From contig NZ_AP023366.1 in NCBI RefSeq assembly GCF_015097055.1, positions 3,003,001-3,067,000 of the forward strand: 64,000 nucleotides of DNA. The letters run 5' to 3'. Every line of letters begins with the position of its first letter. The first letter of the stretch is position 1. Source of the DNA: Effusibacillus dendaii. Its GTDB lineage: Bacteria; Bacillota; Bacilli; Tumebacillales; Effusibacillaceae. Of the stretch, positions 16,900 through 35,470 are shown piece by piece. A model generated the notes under the pieces. That model saw only the letters and a list, made by a program, of their open reading frames with translations, did not search any database and was not told where the DNA came from. The translations under genes and the position numbers were made by a program.

Positions 16900-18141
16900 A
16901 TGCTACAACAATCCATGTTCCAACCAGGCTTTGGAACAAACCCGCAGCAGGTTCGTCAAGACATTGCACAGGACCTGGCTTACAGCAATGCTGGTTCACA
17001 AATGGGCGGCTTCGGTGGTGTGCAGGCGGGTTACGGTGCGCAGGCAATGTTCCAACCGGGCTATGCAGGCACTAATGCACAGGCGGTAAAGCAGAATATG
17101 GGGCAGACCGGCTTTGGATTTGGTTCGGGCGCTCAGTTTGGAGCGGGCAGCCAATCCGGCAACCAAATGTCTCTCGGACCCGCTGCATCCGTATTGATGT
17201 CACCTGGTTTCGCAGGAACCAACGTACAGAAAGTGCGGCAAGATATCGCACAGGAAAGCGGCTACGGCATAGGTGCCACTTCCCAATTTGGAGGTACCCA
17301 ATACGGTAACGTGAATCAACAAAGCAATCAATTTGGCCAGTTTGGATTTGGAGCGCAGGCGATGTTCCAACCGGGTTTTGCAGGAACCAATGAACAAAGC
17401 GTACGGCAAGACATTGCGCGTGAATCCGGCTATGGAATGGGTATGGGGATGGGGATGGGAAGCCAGTTTTCCGGCCAATTCGGTACCGCGCAAGGTACGG
17501 GCCAAGGTGCACAATTTATGGCGATGGGCCTAGGTGGACAAGGTACGAGCCAAGGTGCAGTAGCTTTGGGCCCAGGCGCACAAGCGTTGATGTCACCGGG
17601 CTTCGCAGGAACCAATGTACAGAGTGTACGGCAAGACATTGCGCGTGAGTCCGGTTACGGAATGGGTATGGGAGGCCAGTTTTCCGGGCAATTCGGCACC
17701 GCACAAGGTACGGGCCAAGGGGCGCAATTTATGGCCATGAGCCAAGGTGGACAAGGCACGGGCCAAGCTGCAGTAACTTTGGGCCCAGGCGCACAAGCGT
17801 TGATGTCACCGGGCTTCGCAGGTACCAATGTACAGAGTGTACGGCAAGACATTGCGCGTGAATCCGGCTATGGAATGGGTATGGGAAGCCAGTTTTCCGG
17901 GCAATTCGGCACCGCGCAAGGTACGGGCCAAGGGGCACAATTTATGGCCATGAGCCAAGGTGGACAAGGCACGGACCAAGGTGCAGTAACTTTGGGCCCA
18001 GGCGCACAAGCATTGATGTCACCGGGCTTTGCAGGAACCAATGTACAGAGTGTACGGCAAGACATTGCGCGTGAATCCGGTTATGGAATGAATATGAGTG
18101 GATTTGCAGGAACCAACGCACAATCGACTTTTCTGAGCTAA
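16900..18141 (+). CDS. Gly/Gln/Met-rich repeat protein resembling gamma-type SASP
   Basis: A 413-residue protein made of seven copies, plus a truncated eighth, of a motif like PGFAGTNVQSVRQDIARESG. The copies are separated by Gly/Gln/Met-rich linkers such as QFSGQFGTAQGTGQGAQF. It has no cysteine or tryptophan and no signal peptide. The unit resembles the repeat of gamma-type small acid-soluble spore proteins (FASETNAQQVRKQN with Gln/Gly linkers), including AGTN-x-Q-x-VRQ and QFGT. It is four to five times longer than known gamma-SASP and lacks the Glu residues of the usual GPR protease site. AGGGAGG lies ten bases before the ATG. A role as a spore amino-acid store or coat/core filler is inference. 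Confidence 0.75.
   Translation: MLQQSMFQPGFGTNPQQVRQDIAQDLAYSNAGSQMGGFGGVQAGYGAQAMFQPGYAGTNAQAVKQNMGQTGFGFGSGAQFGAGSQSGNQMSLGPAASVLMSPGFAGTNVQKVRQDIAQESGYGIGATSQFGGTQYGNVNQQSNQFGQFGFGAQAMFQPGFAGTNEQSVRQDIARESGYGMGMGMGMGSQFSGQFGTAQGTGQGAQFMAMGLGGQGTSQGAVALGPGAQALMSPGFAGTNVQSVRQDIARESGYGMGMGGQFSGQFGTAQGTGQGAQFMAMSQGGQGTGQAAVTLGPGAQALMSPGFAGTNVQSVRQDIARESGYGMGMGSQFSGQFGTAQGTGQGAQFMAMSQGGQGTDQGAVTLGPGAQALMSPGFAGTNVQSVRQDIARESGYGMNMSGFAGTNAQSTFLS
17575..18109 (+). repeat. 213-bp in-frame tandem repeats in the SASP-like gene
   Basis: Near-identical units begin near 17575, 17788 and 18001, a period of 213 bp or 71 codons. The last copy is cut short before the stop. Earlier copies (16900-17574) are more diverged. 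This points to recent expansion at the 3' end by unequal recombination or slippage. Confidence 0.9.
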
Positions 18142-18161
18142 TGTTTAAGAAAGGCGAAAGA

Positions 18162-18199
18162 AGCCCAACTAAAGCTGCTGGAGCGGCTTTAGTTGGGCT
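18162..18199. terminator. Inverted repeat between the repeat-protein gene and the sinR-like gene
   Basis: AGCCCAACTAAAGC pairs with GCTTTAGTTGGGCT around a short loop, a very stable stem. The T tract is weak on the plus strand and slightly better on the minus strand. It sits exactly between convergent genes and probably terminates both. Confidence 0.65.
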
Positions 18200-18630
18200 A
18201 TTGATCTTTGCTCTGCAATCGCCATTTTTGATATTCAAGAAACTCGCGAAATTGATCTTTGCTCTGCAATCGCCATTTTTGATATTCAAGAAACTCGCGA
18301 AATTGATCTTTGCTCTGCAATCGCCATTTTTGATATTCAAGAAACTCGCGAAATTGATCTTTGGAAATTCCGGAAGCCATCGCATCTCTCGCAAGCTGCA
18401 GCCGATCTTCATCAGCGGCTCAGTATCCGGCTGTGAGCTGCCTTCCAATAACGTTTGAATATCGGTACCCAATACATGGGACACTTTTTCCAAAAAATGA
18501 ATGGAAGGGTTCTGTTGAATTCCCCGTTCAATGGAACTGAGATAGGATTTTGCGACTCCGCCCGATCTGCCAGTTCGGTCAGGGACATTTTATGGAGTTG
18601 CCTCAAATTTTGTATTTTTTTACCAATCAA
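18198..18630 (-). pseudogene. sinR: SinR-like biofilm/sporulation regulator, frameshifted, with repeated tail
   Basis: The minus strand reads a SinR-like protein in three frames. The N-terminal HTH begins MIGKKIQNLRQLHKMSLTEL. After a missing G near 18565 the frame continues VAKSYLSSIERGIQQNPS and FLEKVSHVLGTDIQTLLEG. A second one-base shift near 18415-18430 leads to RDAMASGISKDQFREF. The tail then repeats a 17-residue unit (SKDQFREFLEYQKWRLQ) three times and ends SKDQ. In Bacillus SinR a single copy of this helix forms the dimer and SinI-binding surface. The TTG start at 18630 has GAAGGGA upstream and a TATAAT at 18671-18676 on this strand. The two shifts suggest a pseudogene, but sequencing error in short G runs is possible. 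Confidence 0.8.
18200..18361 (-). repeat. 51-bp tandem repeat, about 3.2 copies, encoding the SinR tail helix
   Basis: Copies start at 18200, 18251, 18302 and (partial) 18353 and look identical base for base. A length of 51 bp keeps the frame (17 codons). The repeat lies inside the sinR-like gene. Confidence 0.95.
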
Positions 18631-19905: not shown

Positions 19906-21804
19906 TTGAACGTTACGCAATCCTGGCAGCAGTTTGTGCTTAACAGAGAAACCCGCGTGAATGTTCGTAAGGAAATCTTGGATTCATGGCAAAGGTGCAG
20001 GCAGTTAGGTATTTCTCATGAATTGGATCAGGTTGCTTCTCACATCAGTAGTGATGAGTTCATCAAGAGACGTGAAAAAAACGAAGTTCTATTGGCGGCT
20101 GCTGTTCCAGTGATGGAAGAACTGTACAACCATTTAAAGGGTGGTGGTTACCTGCTCCTTCTCGCCGATGCGGATGGGTATTTGATCGAAATGATGGCGG
20201 ATGCGAAGGCGCAGCAAATATGCGATCGTGGAGGCATTTCTCCCGGTGCAAGATGGATGGAGGATAATGTTGGGTCCACCGGACTTTCCATAGCCCTGAG
20301 GACTCGCACCGCTATGGCCACATCAGCCACGGAACATTTTTGTACCGCCTTTCGTATATGGGATTGCTCAGCCTGCCCAATATATGTAGATGGAGAATTT
20401 ATGGGGGTGTTCGACGTATGTCGGGTGGGTCCGGGAAATGACATACGTGAACTGTTCACGTTAGCGGTCTCAGGAGCACGGGCTGTGGCAGAAAGATTAC
20501 GTTATGAGAGAAACAGAATAAGGGAAGAGATATTATCCGAAATTCTCTTACATTCTTGGGATATCAATTTGCAGTCCACAGGCATTCTTTCCTTCGACAA
20601 ATGGGGAAAGATTATACATAAGAATAAACTGGCTTCCGAGTTTATCCATCTGCTCCAGCAGGAAAATCAAAGATTAAACCCTTCTTCACAGACCAAGGAA
20701 CATCACGTAATCTACCAAATGAAAAGCCATTCGGAAGAAACAGCGGAGATCTTCCTGCAAGGACAGAGATACCTGCTTGAATCTAAACAATTAACGAAAC
20801 AGGATCAAAACTTGGCCACGGTTGTTTTGGTCACGCCCGAAACGCAAAAGAAAATCACCTATCCTGTGGCAAAACCTTCACAAGAAGAACAATCCGAAGT
20901 GCATGCTGCCTTTAAAACGAAGAATCCTCTCTTTAAGAAAACGTTGCATGTAGCTGCAAAAGCTGCCAGGAGTCAGGCATGCATTCTTATCCAAGGGGAA
21001 AGCGGCACGGGTAAAGATTTTATGGCCAGAGCGATACACCGCGAAAGCAGCAGGCGAAGTAAACCTTTTATTGCTCTAAACTGTGCCTCTTTGCCAAAAG
21101 AATTAATTGCTTCTGAACTTTTTGGTTATGCACCGGGAGCCTTTACCGGGGCCAAACAGCAGGGAAACCCCGGAAAAATTGAAGCAGCGAATGGAGGCAC
21201 TTTGTTTTTGGATGAAATTGCAGACATGCCTCTCGAACTGCAGGCTGTGTTTCTTCGTGCTCTGGAGGAAAAACAAATCACGAGAGTAGGAAGCACAACT
21301 CCCATTCCTGTGGATGTACGTTTTGTCGCCGCTTCCCACAAGGATTTGTGGCTATTGGTAGAAAAAGGGGAGTTCCGGCAAGACCTGTTCTATCGTCTCA
21401 ATGTATTTACTGTTCACATTCCCCCGTTACGAGAACGGCCGGAAGATTTGGAACTGTTGATTAATCAGATGCTTTCCGCATCTTGTGAACAAGCGTGGCG
21501 TAATATTATCACGTTTACTCCAGAAGCCATGGAACTCTTTCTACACTATGCATGGCCCGGTAACTTACGTGAGCTTCGGAATGTCATCGAGAGAATTACA
21601 TACCTTCATGAACAGGATCAGTTTGATGCTCGTCATGTACAAGAGTTTTTGGATTTTGGTGAAACAGCCAAGATAAAAATGAGTGAACGGGAACGTATTG
21701 AATTGGCTTTAAAAATTGCCAATGGTAATCGTGTTCAAGCTGCCAGACAACTGAATATCTCACGAAGCGCTTTATATCGTAAATTGGAGAAATACAGTAT
21801 GTAA
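19906..21804 (+). CDS. Sigma-54-dependent activator, AcoR-like (GAF-AAA-Fis)
   Basis: A bacterial enhancer-binding protein that opens sigma-54 promoters using ATP. The 632 residues contain an N-terminal GAF-type sensor region (about 50-200), an AAA+ domain with Walker A GESGTGKDF (about 364-372), the sigma-54-contacting loop GAFTGA (about 411), Walker B GGTLFLDEI, and a C-terminal Fis-type HTH (NGNRVQAARQLNISRSALYRK). The layout matches AcoR, the activator of acetoin catabolism. It starts with TTG behind AGGGAGGG. It probably controls the sigma-54 promoter at 23161; a broken IS630 copy now lies between regulator and target. The inducer is unknown. Confidence 0.92.
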   Translation: MNVTQSWQQFVLNRETRVNVRKEILDSWQRCRQLGISHELDQVASHISSDEFIKRREKNEVLLAAAVPVMEELYNHLKGGGYLLLLADADGYLIEMMADAKAQQICDRGGISPGARWMEDNVGSTGLSIALRTRTAMATSATEHFCTAFRIWDCSACPIYVDGEFMGVFDVCRVGPGNDIRELFTLAVSGARAVAERLRYERNRIREEILSEILLHSWDINLQSTGILSFDKWGKIIHKNKLASEFIHLLQQENQRLNPSSQTKEHHVIYQMKSHSEETAEIFLQGQRYLLESKQLTKQDQNLATVVLVTPETQKKITYPVAKPSQEEQSEVHAAFKTKNPLFKKTLHVAAKAARSQACILIQGESGTGKDFMARAIHRESSRRSKPFIALNCASLPKELIASELFGYAPGAFTGAKQQGNPGKIEAANGGTLFLDEIADMPLELQAVFLRALEEKQITRVGSTTPIPVDVRFVAASHKDLWLLVEKGEFRQDLFYRLNVFTVHIPPLRERPEDLELLINQMLSASCEQAWRNIITFTPEAMELFLHYAWPGNLRELRNVIERITYLHEQDQFDARHVQEFLDFGETAKIKMSERERIELALKIANGNRVQAARQLNISRSALYRKLEKYSM

Positions 21805-21830
21805 TGCCGATCTGGTAGATCGTTTTTAAA

Positions 21831-22987
21831 ATAACGTAAATTATGTTATTGAGCGAAAGACTCAAGTCCATACTTCCAACGAAAAGGGATCGGATTTTCG
21901 TTTACTTCTTTAAGATAAAGCTCAATACGTTGCTTCAGTTCTTCTTTGGAGTGTACACGTATATGGCGTAAAACACTTCTGCTCATCTTCGAAAAAAAGG
22001 CCTCGATCACGTTGAGCCAAGAGGCGTGCTTGGGAGCGAACACAAATTCAAAGCGATTAGGCACGGTTTCCAAGTATGCTCGAGTTTCTTTGGAGGTGTG
22101 GGCAGAGTGGTTATCCAAGATAATTTGAATGCGAAGCCCAGGGTCATAATGACCATCCAGCTTCTTAAGAAAATCAACAAATCTTTACTGCGATGACGTT
22201 CTTCTACCGTGCCGATCACTTCGCCTGTCAGCAAGTCGATCCCTGCCAATACGCTCAACGTACCGTGGCGGACATACTCAGGGTCGCGATCGGTCGAAGC
22301 ATGTTTACCCGGGACAGGAGGCAAATCTGGAGCCGTTGTGTAAATGGCTTGGATACCAGGCTTTTCATCATAAGATACCATCACATCATATACCGGCCTG
22401 AACGTATCATCTTCCAGAGCCCATTGGACTTGTTGATACACACAGAGCACTTGCGCCATCTTCGCATCAAAGTCCGGATCGCGCCGCTGTAAGTAATACG
22501 TGACTTTATGTGGGCGAATCTCTTGGCGGGAGAGAATTTGAGAGACCGTACCAACACCTATTTGTGCTACGCTAGGATGTCCTTGCTTCACCGCGTGTTC
22601 CCGAATATGACGGGTGAGTAACCGATATGTCCAAATCTCGCGGCAGGTCGGCCGGAGCGCTGAAGATCATCCAGCGCAGCTTTTACGCCCAATTGCGATG
22701 CCTTTTTAATACAGCGGTCTACCTTAGGTACGTTCGTGTGTAATTGAGCAGCCATCTTGGGCACACTCAGGCCCTCTGTATCAAGCAATATCATACGAGC
22801 ACGTTCAGCGTGACAAACTTGGGCGGTGCGAGATTGACTGATTTGTCGAAGCATAGTCTGTTCTTCTTCTGAAAGTACAAGTACAGGTTTTTTATAGTAG
22901 GCGGCCATTGGTATCCTCTCCCGACTGGATCTCTATACCAAGGATATCGTATTCTGGCATAAACTTATAGTATTTTCAAAACGTTAT
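21831..22987 (-). mobile_element. IS630-family element, inactive
   Basis: The span holds a transposase gene split by two frame changes. ATAACGT at 21831-21837 and its complement ACGTTAT at 22981-22987 may mark the ends, giving about 1.16 kb, normal for IS630. The exact ends and the expected TA target duplication are not certain. Confidence 0.65.
21846..22908 (-). pseudogene. IS630-family transposase, two frameshifts
   Basis: Three pieces give one transposase. 22588-22908 is the N-terminal HTH half (LSEEEQTMLRQISQSRTAQ, GLSVPKMAAQLHTNVPKVDR). 22007-22591 holds the middle with VMVSYDEKPGIQAIYTTAPD. 21846-22118 holds the C-terminal catalytic end with LDNHSAHTSKETRAYL and FAPKHASWLNVIEAFFS. The DDE residues (D in YDEKPG, D in LDNHSAH, E in NVIEAFF) are all visible, but in different frames. 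Some IS630 relatives use one programmed shift; two breaks make inactivity more likely. Confidence 0.85.
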
Positions 22988-22995
22988 ACTAGTGT

Positions 22996-23060
22996 CGGTG
23001 TTCAGACAACTCATGTCCATTGAGTTGTCTTGTTTTTTAATGTCCGTTGTCCGGACACCG
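22996..23060 (+). promoter_or_regulatory. Dyads and hairpin upstream of the sigma-54 promoter (candidate activator sites)
   Basis: Two related palindromes, TGTTCAGACA (22999-23008) and TGTCCGGACA (23048-23057), lie about 105-160 bp before the sigma-54 promoter, the usual distance for enhancer sites. Their flanks also pair with each other (CGGTGTTCAGACAAC with GTTGTCCGGACACCG, one mismatch). Between them AGACAACTCA/TGAGTTGTCT (23004-23030) forms a perfect stem followed by six T, so it could also be a terminator. The two structures exclude each other. Confidence 0.5.
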
Positions 23061-23160
23061 AATGTACCATGAAACAGATACGGTAGAATAAGGGTACATG
23101 AACAACATCATTACAACCTGAGAATACTGTTTTTTTTGATATTAACGAATATTTGATGGA

Positions 23161-23176
23161 TTGGCATGTTTTTTGC
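23161..23176 (+). promoter_or_regulatory. Sigma-54 promoter (-24/-12)
   Basis: TTGGCATGTTTTTTGC matches the sigma-54 consensus TGGCAC-N5-TTGC, with ten bases between the GG and GC pairs as required. The start of the SCP2-like gene is about 70 bases downstream. Confidence 0.8.
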
Positions 23177-23246
23177 TTTATCCAATAGACAAGTAGAGAA
23201 CATCAACAACACGCTCTACTAACAAAATTTAAGGAGGAGATTTGAT

Positions 23247-23636
23247 ATGACAATTGCTGCAGATCAATGGTCTACTCATTTTAAAGAGACTAATGACACA
23301 AATGAAGAGCTGAACGCCCACGGAAAGTTTTTTACCTGCTCGTATCTGTTGGATATGGAGACAAAAAAGTTCCTAATTCAAACCCACGCGGGAAAAATTG
23401 AGAAAATTACCATTGACCCTGATCCTCTTGATCATTATCAATTTGCCATTCGTGCAAGCGCAGATACGTGGCGCAAGTTTTCTCAGCCCACTCCACCGCC
23501 GATGTATCATGGCATTTGGGCGGCAAGTTTTAAGCGTGATATGAAATTGGAAGGTGACCTGCTTGTTTTAATGCAAAATCTTCGCTGCATAACAACCCAA
23601 TTGGAGCTTCTCCGTGTCGTCGGAGTTCCAGTTTAA
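23247..23636 (+). CDS. SCP2-like small protein
   Basis: A 129-residue soluble protein. Its central and C-terminal part resembles the sterol-carrier-protein-2 fold: a strand-rich segment (IQTHAGKIEKITIDPDPLDHYQFAIRAS cut here to its ends), then a helix-forming HGIWAASFKRDMKLEGDL, where the KLEGD turn is typical of SCP2 domains. SCP2-type proteins bind hydrophobic ligands. AAGGAGGAG precedes the ATG. It is the first gene of the sigma-54 operon and is followed after 30 bases by an alpha/beta hydrolase. The family call is moderate; the ligand is unknown. Confidence 0.7.
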   Translation: MTIAADQWSTHFKETNDTNEELNAHGKFFTCSYLLDMETKKFLIQTHAGKIEKITIDPDPLDHYQFAIRASADTWRKFSQPTPPPMYHGIWAASFKRDMKLEGDLLVLMQNLRCITTQLELLRVVGVPV

Positions 23637-23666
23637 ACTAAAAACTTAAAGAGGAGGAAATAAACT

Positions 23667-24524
23667 ATGCCAAAAGCTAAAATTTCACCTGTAACTGGTC
23701 GCTATGTCACAATCGAAGTCGATGGAGATGAGTATAAAGTATTTTATTTGGAAAACGGAACAGGACAACCAATTGTCTGTCAGCATACCGCAGGATGTCA
23801 CAACCATCAATGGCGGGGGCTTCTTGAAGATGAAGAACTCACGCAAAACTATCGTATCATTGCCTATGACCTGCCACGCCACGGAAAATCCGATCCTCCG
23901 CTTAACCGCGAGTGGTGGAAGGAAGAGTATAAATTGACTGCTGATTTCTACACCAAATTTATCGTCACCCTTTGTGATGCACTCGAGTTGGAAAGACCCA
24001 TTTTCATGGGATCATCTTTTGGGGGGAACGTAGCTCTTCAGCTTGCCCTACGCTACCCTGATCGCTTTGAAGCCGTCATTCCTGTAGAAGCTGCCGACTA
24101 CTCTCCAGGGTTCTATCTTGACTGGTGGCATCATCCGCATGCTAATGCCGCTCAAGTGTGTGCAAGCGGGGTATGGGATTTAATGGCTCCACAATCACCA
24201 GATAAAGATCGGTGGGCAACGTGGTTTTATTACTCTCAAGGATCGGAAGCGTTTAAGGGTGATTTGTATTTCTACTCCGTTGATCATGACCTTCGTGGAA
24301 AGCTTGATCAAATTCAAGGCGACAAAGTCAAAGTTGTCATGCTCACAGGAGATTACGACTATCTCACCACCCCTGAAGATGGAAGGCGTACCGCAAGCCA
24401 AATTAAAAATGCCGAGTTTGTCGAAATGGTTGGCATCGGGCACTTCCCGATGAGTGAAAACCACGAAGTGTTCCGAAAGTACCTAAAACAAGCATTGGAT
24501 ATGATTCGCACGGCAAAGGCGTAA
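23667..24524 (+). CDS. Alpha/beta-fold hydrolase in a sigma-54 operon
   Basis: A 285-residue cytoplasmic hydrolase. The nucleophile elbow is MGSSFGGN (about residues 111-118), the acid is probably Asp in LTGDYDYLT (about 230), and the catalytic His is in VGIGHFPM (about 258). An oxyanion region HTAGCHNHQW occurs near residue 36. It lies 30 bases after the SCP2-like gene behind AGAGGAGG and ends at a strong terminator. Control by the AcoR-like activator and sigma-54 suggests catabolism of an ester, lactone or similar small substrate. The substrate cannot be named. Confidence 0.88.
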   Translation: MPKAKISPVTGRYVTIEVDGDEYKVFYLENGTGQPIVCQHTAGCHNHQWRGLLEDEELTQNYRIIAYDLPRHGKSDPPLNREWWKEEYKLTADFYTKFIVTLCDALELERPIFMGSSFGGNVALQLALRYPDRFEAVIPVEAADYSPGFYLDWWHHPHANAAQVCASGVWDLMAPQSPDKDRWATWFYYSQGSEAFKGDLYFYSVDHDLRGKLDQIQGDKVKVVMLTGDYDYLTTPEDGRRTASQIKNAEFVEMVGIGHFPMSENHEVFRKYLKQALDMIRTAKA

Positions 24525-24556: not shown

Positions 24557-24595
24557 AAGAGCCATCACGACTTCCCATCGTGGATGGCTCTTTCT
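24557..24595 (+). terminator. Intrinsic terminator of the sigma-54 operon
   Basis: AAGAGCCATCACGA pairs with TCGTGGATGGCTCTT (one bulge) and is followed by a short T-rich run. Confidence 0.8.
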
Positions 24596-34624: not shown

Positions 34625-35470
34625 TTGATCGTGGCCAGCAGTCTGTTTCTGTTTACGAGTCTCTTTGTGCTTTGGCAAGAACTGTTGTCCTATCTGCGGC
34701 AAAAAACCGGTTCGGAGCACCGCAAGTTAAAACACATTCAAAAAGAGCGGCAAATCGACATTCATCCGCTCGATCGGCTGGCCGGTTGGTTGATGCCCGT
34801 GATTCGCCACATGCCGAACAGACAGATGTTGGAACGTGTGACTTTGCAGGCGGGAAGCCCCTATCAAATGACGTTTCCCCGATATGCGGTCTTGAAACTG
34901 CTGGGCGCGGTCGGATTTGGTTTGCTGCTGTCTCCGAAGTGGATCGTAGGGAAAATCGTTTATGCGATGATCGGCTTTCTGGCACCGGATTTGCTGTTGT
35001 TTGCCAAAAGGCGGGCCAGGCAGAAGCGTATTTTGCGGGAACTGCCCTTTATGATGCAGAAAATTGCCCGCTCTGCCTCAAACGGAATTCCGCTTCGCGA
35101 GGTGTTGGCCGTTTTGGCCGACCGATTACGCGGGCCGCTGCAGGAAGAGGTGAAACGGTTGTCTGCTCATTACAGCATAGAGGGCAACCTGTCAAAATGT
35201 TTACCCGCTTTTTGCGATCGAATCGGCTTGGAGGAAGTCGACGATATGGCATTTGCCATGTTGCAGGCGGAACAATCCGGCAAGATGCGGGTCATTTTGG
35301 AGAAACAGGCGGAGATTCTGAAGCGGAGGGAATCGTTTGCGGCACATAAAAACACGAAAAATCGGGCGAATTTTTTGCCGCTTGCCACGGTTGGCATGGT
35401 GATTTGTATTTTTCTGCTTGTGGCAGTGCCTTTGTTTTTGTCGATTGCCACAAACGGATTATTTAAATAA
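34625..35470 (+). CDS. tadC: Tad platform protein TadC (GspF family)
   Basis: Second platform protein, pairing with TadB. With TTG 34625, placed six bases after GGAGGTGA, it has 281 residues. It has an N-terminal helix, a middle helix pair (about 85-125), a type II secretion F domain (FMMQKIARSASNGIPLREVL, AMLQAEQSGKMRVIL), and a final helix (FLPLATVGMVICIFLLVAV). The family and order in the operon are clear; the exact start is less certain because several TTG/GTG codons are near. Confidence 0.9.
   Translation: MIVASSLFLFTSLFVLWQELLSYLRQKTGSEHRKLKHIQKERQIDIHPLDRLAGWLMPVIRHMPNRQMLERVTLQAGSPYQMTFPRYAVLKLLGAVGFGLLLSPKWIVGKIVYAMIGFLAPDLLLFAKRRARQKRILRELPFMMQKIARSASNGIPLREVLAVLADRLRGPLQEEVKRLSAHYSIEGNLSKCLPAFCDRIGLEEVDDMAFAMLQAEQSGKMRVILEKQAEILKRRESFAAHKNTKNRANFLPLATVGMVICIFLLVAVPLFLSIATNGLFK

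Follow-up and report, generated by a model that had tools for sequence, protein, structure and literature searches.

A predicted SCP2-fold protein and an alpha/beta hydrolase form a constant gene pair under probable sigma-54 control in Effusibacillus dendaii: a possible two-protein catabolic hydrolase

Why does a small operon of Effusibacillus dendaii set a gene for an SCP2-like protein before one for an alpha/beta hydrolase, and what might the two proteins do together? We put at roughly 50% the probability that this operon, which lies in the 64,000-nucleotide stretch of DNA analysed here (the window), encodes a two-protein catabolic hydrolase for a lactone- or ester-type ring-cleavage product, controlled by a GAF-domain activator and sigma-54. 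The reading sets out from features legible in the sequence: the gene pair, its predicted folds, the triad residues, their conservation, a natural fusion, a promoter and an upstream motif. Activator and promoter are both of ordinary types, and the pair consists of known folds in an undescribed and strikingly constant combination. Searches of the open-licence full-text literature listed no paper that describes such a pair, and passages of PMC9007349 and PMC13101518 contain nothing on it. The features of the locus, in window coordinates, are as follows.

19906..21804, + strand: sigma-54 enhancer-binding activator of AcoR/DhaR type, 632 aa; Pfam GAF, AAA+ and Fis-type HTH_8; GAFTGA at nt 21136
21827..22992, - strand: IS630-family element, transposase in three frames; right end ~22992, left end estimated
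22999..23008, no strand assigned: first palindrome of the first-pass annotation, TGTTCAGACA; not conserved, overlaps the terminator hairpin
23004..23030, + strand: terminator-like hairpin, 10 bp, T-rich tail; -13.8 kcal/mol for 22996-23036; matches the activator's hairpin in locus L022
23041..23057, + strand: candidate activator-binding site, TGTCCgtTGTCCGGACA, 120 bp 5' of the promoter; holds the second palindrome; motif in 6/6 activator-linked loci
23048: second palindrome of the first-pass annotation, TGTCCGGACA; conserved inside the longer motif
23161..23177, + strand: sigma-54 -24/-12 promoter, TTGGCATGTTTTTTGCT; 12/13 consensus positions
23247..23636, + strand: gene for the SCP2-fold small protein, 129 aa; model pLDDT 93.2; Z 14.3 to 2cx7
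23667..24524, + strand: gene for the alpha/beta hydrolase, 285 aa; Ser117, Asp231, His259; Z 28.0 to 4uhd, 27.0 to 2xua
24557..24592, + strand: hairpin 3' of the hydrolase gene, from folding; weak T tract; probable operon end

The first-pass annotation had described this arrangement, and its two open reading frames, near-consensus promoter, upstream activator gene (present and intact) and intervening broken IS630 copy are all in place. Three partial copies elsewhere in the genome fix the right end of the IS630 element, and the left end is estimated from the end sequences. No intact IS630 transposase above the model cut-off was found: two pieces reach 23 and 66 bits against 100, and a third matches DDE_3, leaving a copy that is recognisable and split. 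The element sits just past the stop codon of the activator gene and ahead of that gene's terminator hairpin; its insertion would have parted the gene from its terminator while the activator reading frame, the candidate binding site and the promoter stayed unbroken. An activator works in trans, so with these three elements intact the operon is expected to remain under control.

Is this activator dedicated to the pair? The protein has the features of its class, namely an AAA+ domain with GAFTGA, a C-terminal Fis HTH and a sensor domain. Like AcoR/DhaR-type activators it combines GAF, AAA+ and Fis HTH domains, adjoins its target and has a candidate site ~100-121 bp 5' of a -24/-12 promoter; it differs in its target and in scoring only 332 bits against the DhaR model NF008485, whose equivalog cut-off is 551. 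Orthologues lie directly 5' of the pair, at 183-274 bp and with no IS between, in five other loci: Paenibacillus (L022), Domibacillus (L024 and L025), a Bacilli genome (L100) and a Peribacillus plasmid (L108). The strict promoter TTGGC-N7-TTGC(A/T) stands 71-86 bp before the start codon in the window and in each of these five, that is, in 6/6 activator-linked loci compared with 0/83 loci lacking an activator match, some of them truncated by the end of the contig or of the fetched flank; 88 other loci were tested in all. The 254-bp region, dinucleotide-shuffled 4000 times, never produced a match to this pattern. A looser pattern is found in 10 of the 88, five of these without the activator. The genome also carries rpoN.

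The motif TGTYC-N2/3-TGYYCGRAC is present in all six activator-linked regions, 100-121 bp before the promoter, is absent from 4000 shuffles of each, and has a single match in the 3.45-Mb genome. Because the six loci that served to define it are also the ones counted, L024 and L025 being near-identical, these counts measure consistency and are not an independent test. A search for further Bacillota loci that could supply such a test gained none, only the already known genome appearing among 41. Of the two palindromes proposed earlier as a pair, both decamers are present, and the second is conserved inside the longer motif; the first is not conserved. The bare decamers exceed chance only slightly (3 strand-matches against 0.72 expected, a number reached by 8 of 100 shuffles). 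The first was rejected as a second activator site, as it is not conserved and overlaps the activator's terminator hairpin, where L022 has a relative of it with two mismatches.

The segment 23041-23057 is thus, judged from its sequence, the probable activator-binding site, and the protein that binds it would be this activator. Here, as in some other Bacillota, the GAF-domain activator would bind TGTYC-N2/3-TGYYCGRAC ~100-121 bp upstream and drive the sigma-54 polymerase. The dedicated control that the first-pass annotation had proposed is supported: five other loci have the activator beside the pair with no IS between and keep both the promoter and the upstream site, and the motif is unique in the genome. 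The pair in this bacterium seems to be switched on by its own activator. That annotation had also staked its claim on orthologous pairs sharing a -24/-12 promoter. The strict box is absent from 83 of the 88 loci, so that sigma-54 control of the family as a whole falls, whereas control of this operon stands. Loci without the strict promoter often carry LysR, IclR or GntR regulators instead, and a Planococcus locus (L023) has neither activator match nor promoter. We conclude that sigma-54 control, though real, is confined to some Bacillota and does not characterise the family. The Bacillota version is a clean, self-contained sigma-54 switch, and its inducer would point to the substrate.

How constant, then, is the pair itself? 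A pattern search with the small protein across 84,980 species genomes gave 73 confirmed loci, and the hydrolase is matched in all 73, some copies being cut by contig ends or frame-broken; the first-pass annotation had proposed looking for the same pair in other genomes, and it recurs. In a sample of 398 genomes of the same class, the small protein is found in six, the genome studied here included, with the hydrolase in 6/6. It is absent from the three other genomes listed for the genus. These two counts point to a patchy spread in Bacilli. Plasmids contributed 113 records with a hydrolase match, and in 20 of the 20 plasmid regions viewed, one of them haloarchaeal, the small gene lies directly 5' of the hydrolase gene or is fused to it. 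Kinship of the plasmid small genes to the window protein was established by alignment, tblastn or profile, individually for all except L123, L126 and the second of L131; two unrelated small proteins gave no match. A small gene called 'hypothetical protein' in the annotated records viewed is thus the constant companion of one hydrolase subfamily, which spans Actinomycetota, Pseudomonadota, Bacillota and haloarchaea, and plasmids too.

In a tree of the hydrolases (95 rows including the window protein, with matches of 200 residues or fewer, and locus L131, left out), the window protein groups with Paenibacillus, Domibacillus and Planococcus with full support, and this Bacillota group falls inside a mainly actinobacterial part of the tree with weak support (86/71). 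Against Paenibacillus naphthalenovorans the dN and dS values are 0.067 and 0.82 for the small protein, 0.033 and 1.12 for the hydrolase and 0.11 and 1.09 for the activator; these ratios, well below 1, imply that all three are under purifying selection. The E. dendaii genome carries the pair once more, in a diverged form (31% and 47% identity), at C1:921748-922948. Its cluster (L021 8696-14703, C1 ~920.7-926.7 kb) includes genes for a GntR regulator, an MFS transporter, a 3-hydroxyisobutyrate-dehydrogenase-like (HIBADH-like) protein, an MBL lactonase-like protein and a PcaC-like decarboxylase, with what resembles, by eye, the remnant of an aldehyde dehydrogenase.

The small protein is assigned by structure prediction. 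Its model has the SCP2 fold, superimposing on the stand-alone bacterial SCP2 protein 2cx7 with an rmsd of 2.5 over 119 of 129 residues, and matching another, 1wfr, with Z 12.5 and a Foldseek E of 2.7e-5. Sequence searches are far less telling: the window protein matches no Pfam family at E<=0.1, and so not SCP2 (PF02036). Among 45 relatives, eleven have weak matches to SCP2 (best E 0.02) and individual ones hit six further families, in one case at E 0.0044. When solved structures were searched by sequence with the profile of the small protein, two chance-level matches were the only result. SCP2-fold domains also occur in alkylsulfatase chains, among them SdsA1/Pisa1 (Z 9.0-9.5) and YjcS (chain 7tl5, Z 10.0), where they likewise accompany a hydrolase, and this gives a precedent for such a domain serving one. 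The E. dendaii system differs from these in lacking the Pfam match and in its partner, an alpha/beta hydrolase that is usually a separate polypeptide.

Does the small protein merely deliver a ligand, or does it belong to the enzyme? It is possible that it holds a hydrophobic ligand for the hydrolase, as had been suggested earlier. A natural fusion makes a domain partnership likelier than a loose carrier. On plasmid pDK3 of Rhodococcus DK17 (L124 7596-8846) one 416-aa protein joins an SCP2-like domain to the hydrolase; its N-terminal 135 aa match the SCP2-like profile in hhalign at 95.4% (E 1.9e-8, 97 columns), compared with 0.1% for a control segment. The fusion is found in Rhodococcus DK17 and DK180, one lineage and 2/113 plasmid records, and its hydrolase forms a very long branch in the tree. 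An apparent fusion in L094 was not counted, its hydrolase match being partial and its SCP match broken in two, and the length of open frame 5' of the hydrolase proved useless as a fusion search in GC-rich DNA. The two genes overlap by four bases in 11 of 90 loci, the median gap being 18 bases. Evolutionary distances of the SCP2-like protein and the hydrolase correlate at 0.848; this is uninformative as proof of contact, since SCP and LysR correlate equally (0.846) over the same 28 loci.

In the hydrolase, Ser117 and Asp231 are invariant over all 95 aligned rows, and His259 is present in 94 and replaced by a gap in the remaining one, the window protein serving as reference and L131 and matches of 200 residues or fewer again being omitted. 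The model has a pLDDT of 84, lower around ~150-170 and 190-210, with 150-154 and 198-200 among the low-confidence parts. In structure comparison the esterase 4uhd and the enol-lactonase 2xua are a near tie; 2xua is within 1 Z of the top esterases, and esterases rank as high as lactonases. The best NCBIfam matches are enol-lactonases, at 79 and 73 bits and far below cut-off; BphD, at 41 bits, is below its cut-off as well. The protein shares with the PcaD/CatD class (TIGR02427; 2xua) the alpha/beta fold with its Ser-Asp-His triad, and some relatives adjoin genes for PcaC, muconate cycloisomerase or beta-ketoadipate CoA-transferase and thiolase. It differs in scoring only 72.7 bits against a TIGR02427 cut-off of 255.85, in its constant SCP2-like partner, and in that many of its loci have no aromatic-pathway genes.

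What, then, might the substrate be? Neighbours were tallied for 98 loci, in fetched flanks and by similarity to reference proteins; several references come from counted loci, with labels given by eye for L021 and taken from the record annotation for L122, L124, L113 and L125, and L131 stands outside the tally. A lactonase (MBL or SMP-30), PcaC-like decarboxylase (CMD), intradiol dioxygenase or cycloisomerase is a neighbour in 26 of the 98, and 72 have none, so that the lactone reading rests on a minority of loci. Among 53 actinobacterial genome loci, 36 have a LysR-type regulator and 13 an aldehyde dehydrogenase, and 0/53 have a lactonase, decarboxylase, dioxygenase or cycloisomerase neighbour. 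The 14 Pseudomonadota loci have IclR, MBL lactonase and sugar-type ABC transporter genes in 10 each, DMFase-like genes in three and aldehyde dehydrogenase in one; the five Bacillota genome loci have the activator in three and a DMFase-like gene in one. Among plasmids and Bacilli genomes, models are passed above cut-off by SSADH in L108, PcaC in L102 and muconate cycloisomerase in L112, and the intradiol dioxygenases of L114 and L115 match catechol dioxygenase models below cut-off; among the Pseudomonadota, the lactonase of L075 passes the AttM model. SMP-30 lactonases and beta-keto acid cleavage enzymes are annotated beside the pair in some loci. The same search of the window's own flank (16-32 kb) returned the activator only; the next gene downstream of the operon resembles sulfite reductase by eye.

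The chemistry of these neighbours suggests the opening of a lactone, or of a related acyl compound. A parallel may be drawn with the AttM/BlcC lactonase operons of alphaproteobacteria: an MBL lactonase gene adjoins the pair in 10/14 Pseudomonadota genome loci, and succinate-semialdehyde dehydrogenase recurs elsewhere. AttM, however, is of the MBL fold, and the pair is an additional, different hydrolase. In the two-protein hydrolase that we favour, the alpha/beta hydrolase with its catalytic triad would carry out the hydrolysis, and the SCP2-fold protein, as constant partner and most likely bound to it, would help to form the substrate or to hold and present it. That substrate would probably be a hydrophobic product of ring cleavage, of lactone or ester type or a related acyl compound, and its hydrolysis would release an aldehyde or keto acid for a succinate-semialdehyde-type dehydrogenase or for beta-ketoadipate enzymes.

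A bolder form of this proposal, tentative and with the odds against it, makes the SCP2-fold protein a true enzyme subunit. Together with the hydrolase it would make up a two-protein enzyme for butenolides and enol-lactones, standing in for muconolactone isomerase and enol-lactonase in some ring-cleavage pathways and acting on different lactones elsewhere. This enzyme would have reached both Bacteria and haloarchaea, its regulators (sigma-54 activator, LysR, IclR, GntR) swapped by lineage. If the pair is one enzyme, many unannotated loci gain a role, and lactone opening can be tested as a step of some marine aromatic pathways.

Could the small protein instead be a catalyst in its own right? It might act as an isomerase-like partner, turning a butenolide, muconolactone for example, into the enol-lactone that the hydrolase opens, the pair then replacing CatC and CatD and yielding, in the window's clade, a semialdehyde acid. 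The gene order in Alloyangia fits (anion symporter, muconate cycloisomerase, SCP2-like protein, hydrolase, LysR; neither CatC nor CatD is annotated within the 16.8 kb viewed), as does that in Roseivivax, where a dioxygenase, the pair, CoA-transferase subunits and pcaF of the beta-ketoadipate end lie together. Muconolactone isomerase (PF02426) was not found in the seven plasmid records searched, but that search covered plasmids only, chromosomes being excluded, and plasmid gene tables are incomplete. Regions of the Roseivivax type, moreover, list no cycloisomerase beside the dioxygenase, and only two columns of the small protein are invariant across the clades aligned. No SCP2 fold is known to act as an isomerase, which also counts against this explanation, and we consider it unlikely. 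In Phaeobacter inhibens, plasmid pP88_c (L131 1822-8852) has two such units in a row, with an intradiol dioxygenase gene divergent from the pair.

The hydrolase might alternatively cleave a C-C bond in the manner of BphD, or a beta-keto acid, after ring cleavage, with the SCP2-like protein as substrate carrier only. The C-C hydrolases 1j1i and 4lyd match the model with Z 25.5 and 24.8, bphD is annotated in Marinibacterium, and beta-keto acid cleavage enzymes are close by; the sequence models, however, favour enol-lactonases over BphD, and some loci have separate lactonases next to the pair, leaving this role distinctly doubtful. Very improbable is a part in an amide or formamide pathway alongside the adjoining DMFase-like large and small subunits of Paenibacillus and marine alphaproteobacteria, since, for all that a DMFase-like large subunit adjoins the pair in L022, L078, L086 and L090, and that L078 matches the solved DMFase large and small subunits by sequence, these are only 4 of 73 genome loci and the SCP2-like profile has no match to the DMFase-like small subunit. 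A relationship between that subunit and the SCP2-like protein is likewise without support. In these loci the large subunits stand beside the pair with clustered small-subunit-like genes (L078, L086 and L090, downstream; L022, 7191-9960), and such neighbours fit amide as well as lactone chemistry.

Finally, two other features of the window deserve mention. A second near-consensus sigma-54 site, CTGGCACCGGATTTGCT, at 34979-34995, also agrees with 12/13 consensus positions and is the one other site in the window to score 12. Upstream of the activator gene, at 16900-18458, a 413-aa open reading frame made up of FQPGFAGTNxQ/VRQDIAxESGYG-like repeat units is followed by a short tandem-repeat open reading frame.
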